Source: Tieghemostelium lacteum
Lineage: Eukaryota > Evosea > Eumycetozoa > Dictyosteliales > Raperosteliaceae
Direction: 5' to 3'
Length of the DNA stretch: 64,000 nucleotides
Assembly (NCBI GenBank): GCA_001606155.1
Contig: LODT01000037.1
Location: 682,001-746,000, forward strand
This document shows, piece after piece, positions 6,778 through 10,112 of the stretch; the first letter of the stretch is position 1, and the number at the start of each line of letters is the position of its first letter. The notes beneath the pieces were generated by a model. It made no database searches and had not been told where the DNA came from. It saw nothing but the letters and a program-made list of their open reading frames with translations. The position numbers and the translations under genes are program-made.

Positions 6778-7099
6778 AAAATTAAAAAGAAAAAACAATA
6801 AAATTATTTTATAACAACTAAACTTGTATTTTTTGAAAAAGTGTAAAATTGGGGAAAAGAAGGACAAAGCCTAATTTAATTAAATTAAAATAATTTTTTT
6901 TTTTTAATTTTTTTTTTTGGTTCAATTTTAATTTGATAGGATTGATGTTAACATTGAAATTAGATATATATTTACACAAATAATACAAATAAATATAAGA
7001 ATCAATTTTTAAAAGTAACCTAAAAAAGTTAGAAAGACAACAACAAAGTAAAAGGTCAAAAAAAGACTAGAGTAATAAAACAAACAATATTAAAAAGAT
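6778..7099. other. Intergenic spacer
   Basis: A 322-nt spacer between two plus-strand genes. It is nearly pure A/T with two long T runs at about 6895-6920 and A-rich DNA just before the next ATG. No ORF or structured element was seen. Confidence 0.5.
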
Positions 7100-8047
7100 A
7101 TGGATAAATATTATCGTGTTTCAAAACCAATTGATAAAGACACAGAACCTAATGAAATTAGACTGGCTTACAATAGTAAGATTAGTAGTTCTATTGAATA
7201 TGGTTTGGAACTGTTAAAGAAACCAGAGCTACAGTCAATTTTCATCAAGGCATTGGGACCAAATATGATCAGTAAGGCTATATTCGTTGCTGAGATTATC
7301 AAACGTAGAGTATCAGGTCTTCATCAGATCACTGAAATTGGCACAACAGGTATAGTAACTGAATATATGCCAAAAGAAGAAGGTCTTGATAAAGTTGAAT
7401 TGGTTAAACAAACTGCATTCATCAAGATTACATTGTCCCTCAATCAATTGGATACCACAAATCCAGGATATCAACCACCAATTGCAGCTGATTTAGTAAA
7501 ACCTCGAAAATCCTACCATGAAGAGGAATCTCAATTCAATGCTGCCAATAGAGATCAAGGTGATAGTGATGAAGAAAACCATGGTGAACACTCTACTGGT
7601 GTCTCTACTTTTAGAGGTGGTAGAGGTGGTAGAGGTGGAAGAGGTAGAGGCGGAAGAGGTGGAAGAGGTGGTAGAGGTGGAAGAGGTGGTGGAAGAGGTG
7701 GTAGAGGTGGAAGAGGAGGAAGAGGTGGTTCTTTCAGAGGTGGATTTAGAGGTGGTAACCCTAACTCAGATTCAAATATTCCACAACAAACTACAACTAC
7801 CACAACTACACCCAGTTCTACATCAAATGATCAATCACCATCACAACAACAGCAACAACAATCCAATGTAAACTCCAATGGTTACTTTGTTGGTGGTGGA
7901 CACAGAGGTAGTAGAGGTGGAAGAGGAAGAGGCGGTAGAGGTGGAAGAGGAAGAGGCAGCAGAGGCGGTTTTAGAGGTGGAAGATTCAATAATTCAAATT
8001 TAAATTCACCACCACAACAACAATCTCCTCAATCCACAACAAACTAG
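7100..8047 (+). CDS. Alba-domain RNA-binding protein with RGG repeats
   Basis: The first 115 residues form an Alba domain (the fold of archaeal Alba and RNase P/MRP Rpp20/Rpp25), recognisable from the conserved ALGPNMISKAIFVAEIIKRR helix region and ITEIGTTGI. After an acidic linker come two blocks of RGG repeats at about 170-216 and 265-300, separated by a Thr/Gln-rich stretch. Alba-RGG proteins of plants and protists bind RNA or RNA:DNA hybrids and act in translation control or genome upkeep; which of these applies cannot be read from the sequence. It is a single-exon gene of 315 residues starting at ATG 7100. Confidence 0.85.
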   Translation: MDKYYRVSKPIDKDTEPNEIRLAYNSKISSSIEYGLELLKKPELQSIFIKALGPNMISKAIFVAEIIKRRVSGLHQITEIGTTGIVTEYMPKEEGLDKVELVKQTAFIKITLSLNQLDTTNPGYQPPIAADLVKPRKSYHEEESQFNAANRDQGDSDEENHGEHSTGVSTFRGGRGGRGGRGRGGRGGRGGRGGRGGGRGGRGGRGGRGGSFRGGFRGGNPNSDSNIPQQTTTTTTTPSSTSNDQSPSQQQQQQSNVNSNGYFVGGGHRGSRGGRGRGGRGGRGRGSRGGFRGGRFNNSNLNSPPQQQSPQSTTN

Positions 8048-8428
8048 TTTATCAAAATGGAGAGAATCTTTCCAAAATGTAGAATAAATAAAATCAAACA
8101 ATAAGAATATAGATCTTTGTGTATCGCTCTTTTAAATAAATAATAAGTATTTATTAAAAATTATTTGACTAGATGAATACCACTGAAATGGAATTCATTA
8201 CATAAAGAAGTTACTTTGTACTTTCTAAAAACTAATATATATATATATATATATTCCTCAAAAACTTTTCCTATAAACTATGTCATTATTCTAAAAAGCT
8301 TTCTGAGAAAGGCATTATGTTGGGTTTTAGATGAACAAGCAGGAATTGATGATTCAATATTAATGGCAAAAAAGTGGACTATACCTTAAGAGTATTTAAA
8401 ATATATTGAATCCTTTTTTTATATAGAT
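8048..8428. other. Spacer with short unexplained open frame
   Basis: This stretch lies between the Alba gene and the His-Me nuclease ORF. It has an (AT)10 run at 8235-8254. On the plus strand a short open frame ends at the TAA near 8389 and includes ALCWVLDEQAGIDD; it is less AT-rich than its surroundings and may be a coding remnant, but I do not recognise it. Confidence 0.3.
8235..8254. repeat. (AT)10 microsatellite
   Basis: Ten uninterrupted AT units in the spacer between the Alba gene and the His-Me nuclease ORF. Confidence 0.85.
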
Positions 8429-8647
8429 TTACAAAGGTTTCAATTGAGTCATAACCTTACATCTTGGAAGATGTTTGCAAACTGTACCAATGACAACATT
8501 ATTTTGGACCATGTCACCAGCACAATTATCCCTACTTTTGTTAAGAGCTCTTGATTCTCCATGCAAATGGTCAGGTCTAAAGCAGTTTCTTCTGCGACAT
8601 AAATGGCTGGTATTGGATCTCTGTGATGTTTGTTTATATGTATTCAT
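8429..8647 (-). CDS. I-PpoI-like His-Me finger endonuclease core
   Basis: A 72-residue ORF from ATG 8647 carries the zinc-binding core of a His-Me (beta-beta-alpha metal) homing endonuclease. His15, Cys17, Cys22, His27, Asn36 and Cys42 have the same spacing as I-PpoI His98, Cys100, Cys105, His110, Asn119 and Cys125. Cys57-x-His59-x3-Cys63 matches the second I-PpoI zinc site. The catalytic His and the metal-binding Asn are therefore both present. I-PpoI is 163 residues, and its N-terminal half, with one zinc Cys, is not seen. The frame stays open for about 20 codons upstream of the ATG, and CACAG just inside could be a splice acceptor, so this may be the last exon of a longer gene or a 5'-truncated copy. 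It sits alone, head-to-head with NAC alpha, with no host intron or rDNA around it. Confidence 0.65.
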   Translation of the reverse strand: MNTYKQTSQRSNTSHLCRRRNCFRPDHLHGESRALNKSRDNCAGDMVQNNVVIGTVCKHLPRCKVMTQLKPL

Positions 8648-8855
8648 AATTTTTGTGAAAAAATATAATATTTGACTTCGACCACTTTTATAATCAATTT
8701 GTAGAAAAATTATGAACTAACAGATTATTCAAAAATGGATAAACACATTTTATTAAATGGGGTAACGTGATTATGAAATATCAAATTAAAAAATTTTTTT
8801 TTTTTTTCTGACTTTAAATTTTCCAAATAACGAATAATCTCACACATAAATAACA

Positions 8856-9561
8856 ATGGCCACCATCGAAGAAATTAACGAAACTACCCCAGAAACCACC
8901 ACCACCACTGAAACCACCACCCCAGAAACCACCCAAGAAAAGAAAACTTCTCGTGGTGAAAAGAAAACCAAAGCTGCCATGGCTAAATTGGGTATGACTC
9001 CAGTTGATGACATTTTCCGTGTCACCTTAAAACAAACTAAAGGTGTAAGTAATATAATTAATCTCTAGATCAGTAAATGATGAATTTTTAGAGAAAGAAA
9101 ATTGTTATTTTGATATTTTTAAATGAATTTAGAAATATCCACATATCAATAACTATGGTGATGATTAGAATAGATTTTAATACAATAAATTTATCAAATA
9201 CATATTATAGTTCTTATGTGTTGTTGCTTCCCCAGAAGTTTACACCAACGAAACTAAAAGCACTTACGTTATCTTCGGTGAAACCACCTTTGAAGACCCA
9301 ACCGCCGCCAGAGCCACCAAAGCTGCCAAAAACCTCGAAGAAACCACCAAAGTTGAAACTCCAGTTGAAACCACCACTGAAACTACCACTGAAACTTCAA
9401 CTGAAACCACTAAAGATGACTCTGAAGTTGACTTACAAGGTTTGGATGAAAAAGATGTTGAAATCGTTATGAAAGAAACTAAAGCTCCAAAAGCTAAAGT
9501 TGTTGAAGTCCTCAAAAAGACTGGTGATATCGTCACTGCCGTTTTGGAATTGACCATGTAA
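8856..9561 (+). CDS. nacA: Nascent polypeptide-associated complex subunit alpha
   Basis: NAC binds ribosomes and shields new chains, preventing wrong targeting to the ER. Exons 8856-9044 and 9211-9561 (intron GTAAGT...AG, phase 0) give 179 residues. A Thr/Glu-rich acidic N-terminus is followed by the NAC domain with TSRGEKKTKAAMAKLGMTPV, the strand region FLCVVASPEVY and the dimer segment YVIFGETTFED. The C-terminal UBA domain has EKDVEIVMKE, AKVVEVLKKT and DIVTAVLELTM, all standard for NAC alpha. The codons are biased towards GCC, ACC and GTC more than in the neighbours, as expected of a highly expressed gene. A Thr/Glu repeat links the two domains. Confidence 0.92.
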
Positions 9562-9705
9562 ATTTGTTTCTATAAAACTAAAAATTACATTGTGAATTGT
9601 AAACAAAAACAAACTCCTAAACCACCTTCATTTTTTATCTTTTTTTGACAAAATAGGTATAACACCTATCTTAGGTAAATTTACTATATATAATTATCTG
9701 TAAAT

Positions 9706-10112
9706 TCATCTTTTATTTTGTGGAGATTGATTTTGTTGATTCATCTGATTGGAACCATCAAAAATAGATTCCCATGCCAATGGATCATCTATTGGGTGTA
9801 AAAAGTACTTGAATTAAAAAGTTGTTATTATTTGTACTTTGGCTAAGTGGATTATTTACAAGATTAGCTTGTACTATATTTTCAATTGGTTGTTGATCAA
9901 TATGATTTTGATTTTGTAAATATTGAGAATAGTCTTGGTAATTATTATTATTATTATTAATTTGGTTAGTGCTATTATTATTATTTAAAGTTTCATTGGT
10001 ATTGTATATTGTACTATTATTGTTATTATTGTTGTTATGATAACTATTATTTATCATTAATTCCGAGGTATTTAGAGGTCTATTATTCATATTGGTTTGA
10101 TAATTATTATTA

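Follow-up and report, generated by a model that had tools for sequence, protein, structure and literature searches.

I-PpoI, a homing endonuclease of the His-Cys box group, is a protein of 163 residues encoded inside a group I intron, the L1925 intron of Physarum ribosomal DNA (rDNA), and functions as a zinc-stabilised dimer that cuts a long DNA site. The first 93 residues precede its core, and its DNA-contacting sheet carries Arg61, Gln63, Lys65 and Thr67 (PMC11325842, quoted, like PMC9548176, PMC9587614 and PMC12482156 below, from excerpts). Related genes are described from several other settings. In Didymium and Diderma, homing-endonuclease genes carry spliceosomal introns of 47-51 nt (PMC9548176). 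Outside rDNA introns, a His-Cys box nuclease like I-PpoI is found in the KolobokP transposons of animals, multi-copy elements that also have a DDD/E transposase and long direct repeats at their ends (PMC9587614). Three open reading frames (ORFs) of the amoeba Naegleria (orf566, orf203 and orf223) belong to PF05551, which in Pfam represents the zinc-binding region of His-Cys box homing endonucleases, and lie on extrachromosomal rDNA plasmids (PMC12482156). Here we describe a 72-residue ORF from a 64-kb window of Tieghemostelium lacteum (contig LODT01000037.1 of assembly GCA_001606155.1, positions 682,001-746,000; coordinates below are those of the window). It is probably what remains, after loss of the 5' half, of a His-Cys box homing-endonuclease gene of the PF05551 family: a relic catalytic half in the gap between an Alba-domain and a NAC-domain gene.

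The ORF occupies 8429-8647 on the minus strand, with its ATG at 8647 and its stop codon at 8429-8431. Against PF05551, a profile of 131 positions with a curated cut-off of 27 bits, it scores 57.3 bits (E 2.5e-15), and the alignment is confined to profile positions 54-123 (59-123 for the match with this score), which makes the ORF the C-terminal half of the family, with its catalytic and zinc residues. With this E value, and with such a score against the cut-off, the match is not due to chance. I-PpoI itself, run as a control, scores 32.8 bits over profile positions 64-98 only, and so fits the profile less well than the ORF does. No PF05551 match was obtained in 14 control genomes, and that of the ORF is the single one in the T. 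lacteum assembly (23,333,832 bases in 43 contigs). When the ORF was compared as a single sequence with the PDB, all five matches were I-PpoI chains (E 0.03-0.72), a resemblance that would, alone, be weak; a search of NCBIfam returned no match. A preliminary description of this DNA had called the ORF I-PpoI-like and had proposed the PF05551 search. Both the profile score and the uniform PDB matches bear this out, and we regard the family placement as sound.

The same description had named nine catalytic and zinc residues, all of which (H15, C17, C22, H27, N36, C42, C57, H59 and C63) are read in the translation. The first six, at 8522-8605 on the minus strand, make up the beta-beta-alpha-metal core and the first zinc motif, and in the PDB alignment their spacing equals that of H98-C100-C105-H110-N119-C125 in I-PpoI, so that the catalytic His98 and Asn119 have equivalents in H15 and N36. 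The second zinc motif, C57-x-H59-xxx-C63 (8459-8479, minus strand), lies within the PF05551 match and is spaced like the I-PpoI residues that we take to be C132-H134-C138. Between C42 and C57 the ORF is longer, with a gap of 15 residues against what is presumably 7 in I-PpoI. The eighth zinc ligand, which we take to be I-PpoI Cys41, would have its equivalent in the absent N-terminal half. Over the 35-residue core of I-PpoI, 15 of 35 residues are identical in the ORF, among them the equivalents of S97 and E114. These two residues are given as conserved in the I-PpoI-like group in the excerpted text of PMC9587614, which assigns eight His/Cys zinc ligands to the His-Cys box group; the ORF holds seven of the eight. 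The numbering of the six I-PpoI residues is also that of the Fig. 4 legend of PMC9548176, and the His-Cys box genes of that paper share the residue box with the ORF. The catalytic and zinc residues of an endonuclease core have thus been kept, as previously described. The term core is too generous for the whole, since only seven of the eight zinc-site residues are present and the N-terminal half is absent.

What the ORF lacks is the part that in I-PpoI carries Arg61 and the DNA-binding sheet; a member of the group with its N-terminal DNA-binding half would measure about 160-235 residues, as against the 72 found here. Reading the frame further upstream, past stop codons, does not lengthen the PF05551 alignment, which still begins at profile position 54, and the profile detects no N-terminal half in any of the three minus frames of 8048-9800 or in any plus frame of 7000-8854. 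GC content is 0.35-0.43 within the ORF and drops to about 0.2 directly upstream. This AT-rich stretch (8648-8855, minus strand; GC about 0.18-0.23), the expected place of the missing half, forms the 208 bp that separate the ATG of the ORF from that of the divergent NAC gene, and is too short to give room for 93 pre-core residues as in I-PpoI. We propose that an intact His-Cys box homing-endonuclease gene would have lost its 5' half here, its 3' catalytic half staying in the Alba-RGG/NAC gap. By analogy, the intact parent would have acted as a dimer stabilised by zinc, with the beta-beta-alpha-metal core around His15 and Asn36 cleaving a long DNA site. The 72-residue fragment alone is probably not a site-specific nuclease, judging by its residues, because the equivalents of the DNA-binding strands, of Arg61 and of what we take to be Cys41 are missing. 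We infer in this way the truncation of the ORF, its inactivity and its origin from a mobile gene. In the preliminary description the ORF was suggested to be a domesticated or stranded homing nuclease; a stranded one, cut down to its catalytic half, is favoured, and domestication finds no positive support, given the absence of the DNA-binding half and of any convincing upstream exon.

The position between protein genes is also as first described. The ORF is flanked by an Alba-domain gene ending at 8047 and by the divergent NAC-domain gene starting at 8856, and a gene for a VIT/VWA protein lies further left of the Alba gene; these were the three neighbours scanned by profile. The Alba-domain protein (PF01918; 7100-8047, plus strand) has a long RGG-repeat tail. 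The claim that rDNA and a group I intron are lacking holds for the 64-kb window, in which Rfam gave no match at gathering scores. In the assembly as a whole, no group I intron was matched among the 27 of 1913 first-look candidates that were scored. The I-PpoI site is conserved in eukaryotic large-subunit (LSU) rRNA, and no copy of the site, in the sequence that we take it to have, occurs in the assembly with 0 or 1 mismatch. Nuclear LSU rDNA is therefore probably missing from the assembly, which accordingly cannot serve as a survey of rDNA introns, and a parent intron may exist in the unassembled rDNA. The locus thus differs from I-PpoI in having neither an intron nor a DNA-contacting half, and from the Naegleria ORFs, with which it shares a PF05551 match in an amoeba, in not lying on an rDNA plasmid.

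Nor does the locus resemble a KolobokP element, as it is single-copy, has no long direct repeats and is accompanied by host genes at all three scanned neighbouring positions; a transposase, repeats and further copies of the KolobokP kind are all lacking here. Searches of the assembly with profile, protein and DNA queries yielded no second copy of the ORF and none of the intergenic DNA (8048-8855), for which the sole other DNA match was a 22-base TA-rich palindrome (8234-8255) matching its own opposite strand. Long terminal or long direct repeats are absent from 8048-8856; the repeats there amount to a single 19-nt direct repeat, with 84% likeness between its two copies, and six pairs of inverted repeats, almost all of them AT-rich. 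KolobokP offers a precedent, by analogy, for the stranded, non-rDNA position of such a nuclease.

On the strand of the ORF, 36 bp past its stop codon, stands CTCTTAAGGTA (8382-8392, minus strand), which we take to be eleven contiguous core bases of the 15-base I-PpoI site; its significance is uncertain. It occurs once in the window, against a mean of 0.02 in 100 window shuffles, and six times in the 23.3-Mb assembly, where the same word written backwards occurs 23 times. When up to 3 mismatches are allowed, the full 15-mer, in the sequence assumed above, has no match in the window (0.9 expected); when up to 2 are allowed, it has 16 in the assembly, each carrying exactly 2 mismatches, compared with 45 for the same 15-mer written backwards. 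These counts speak against the 11-mer as a true target. Its chance of lying this near the ORF is about 2e-4 (computed by hand, taking 6 sites in 23.3 Mb and an 819-bp span that reaches 300 bp beyond the ORF on either side), a figure to be read with the fact that the proximity was spotted by eye and post hoc, and that other sub-words could equally have been picked. Nor is the site divided in two, as would be expected of an insertion. We consider it a curious adjacency with no evident mechanism, and its significance uncertain. On the plus strand lies a stretch of raised GC content (8273-8389) with a 38-codon open frame ending in LCWVLDEQAGIDDSILMAKKWTIP; it has no Pfam match (8273-8386) and no second copy (8291-8386), and could represent debris of a gene or a last exon that has escaped annotation.

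Several results weigh against the interpretation of the ORF as a truncated relic. All nine motif residues are still present and all 72 codons still open. In a neutral simulation under an AT-biased model (1000 runs per divergence level, indels ignored), the open frame and the nine residues were retained together in a fraction of 0.505, 0.201, 0.024 and 0.003 of runs at 0.02, 0.05, 0.1 and 0.2 substitutions per site, respectively. An old neutral relic would, under this model, be unlikely, and since such retention is improbable under longer neutral decay, the fragment would be young, constrained or both. The codon-use score of 0.28 lies below the 95% point of random synonymous codons (0.37). The PF05551 profile does not recognise even the N-terminal half of I-PpoI, so that its failure to find such a half here is weak evidence. 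The search for spliced upstream exons, an enumeration of ATG-GT-AG combinations, was limited to one intron of 40-400 bp, and of its 106 combinations there are 84, with weaker donors and starts upstream of 8855, of which only the longest was viewed individually. These last points bear on an alternative in which the ORF would be the final exon of a complete but unrecognised His-Cys endonuclease gene, interrupted by small spliceosomal introns like several myxomycete homing-endonuclease genes. Besides the short introns reported for Didymium and Diderma and the preservation of every motif residue, it would gain from a CAG acceptor (CATCACAG|AGATCC, first exon base 8620) placed where GC content jumps from about 0.2 to 0.37-0.43. 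From this acceptor to the NAC start codon, however, there are only 235 bp of AT-rich DNA. Ten of the 106 combinations fall wholly inside the gap, with AT-rich first exons of just 35-101 bp (19-23% GC), and the 12 with stronger donors all start within the first exon of the NAC gene, antisense to it. None of the combinations viewed, each with one intron of 40-400 bp, provides a convincing upstream exon, and no PF05551 N-terminal half appears in any minus frame up to 9800, subject to the low sensitivity of the profile just mentioned. We hold a spliced gene to be unlikely and a 5'-truncated relic to be the better account.

The intact frame and motif could instead belong to a real short gene, for a zinc-binding protein of 72 residues under selection in a non-homing role, for instance as a DNA- or RNA-binding protein, a repressor or a non-specific nicking enzyme. 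The ORF has a start codon, an open frame and coding-like GC content, a T-rich, TATA-like stretch stands directly upstream of its ATG, and its motif is retained above neutral expectation, provided that the locus is not young. Against this, one zinc site would be without its fourth ligand, presumably the equivalent of I-PpoI Cys41, which makes folding of the fragment doubtful. The 11-mer and the codon use do not decide. The synonymous codon-use score is within the range of the neighbouring genes, exceeding that of 56 of the 162 pieces, each 72 codons long, into which long ORFs of the window were divided, and codon use alone is no proof of coding, as random synonymous draws score as high in more than 5% of cases. 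A short gene of this kind appears rather unlikely to us. Far less probable, and offered as speculation, is a history in which a His-Cys box endonuclease left its rDNA intron in dictyostelids and became a 72-residue zinc protein that is still made and is kept for DNA binding, perhaps to the 3' 11-mer, as an autoregulator or a competitor of rDNA homing. An origin from food bacteria, as a fragment of a bacterial or phage HNH_3 endonuclease, is very improbable indeed. Such enzymes, on phage-like and actinobacterial contigs, have an HLCRRRNC-type His-Me core like that of the ORF; six viral or bacterial loci match this core (L002-L006 and L011), and four of them (L002-L005) share the HLCRRRNC string. 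The profile scan covered these four. All exceed the HNH_3 cut-off and match HNH_3 best (33.5-52.5 bits), with PF05551 scores of 11.7-26.6 bits, below the cut-off. The ORF shows the reverse, with its high PF05551 score and no HNH_3 listed at E up to 1; a shortened ORF reaches 11.1 bits with HNH_3 (PF13392; E 0.33), short of the cut-off of 24.8. In addition, none of 50,697 phage records matched at E up to 0.1. This opposite score pattern led us to disfavour a recent bacterial or phage origin. For the truncated relic that we prefer, the open frame, coding-like GC content and intact motif mean that the truncation is recent or that some constraint remains.

PMC9548176 and PMC3679873, both of which treat nuclear group I introns, nowhere contain the string 'dictyostel', and no dictyostelid nuclear His-Cys endonuclease is reported among the titles and abstract openings listed in a literature search that had subscription journals and UniProt-type databases outside its scope. 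A His-Cys box fragment in a dictyostelid chromosome would record the passage of such an element through this lineage, which those two papers leave unmentioned. That I-PpoI-like nucleases occur outside rDNA is already known from KolobokP (excerpts of PMC9587614). If the ORF is a relic, it would be ordinary genomic debris whose source can still be recognised; if it proves to be conserved, this nuclease fold would have escaped from introns by two routes, that of KolobokP being the other.
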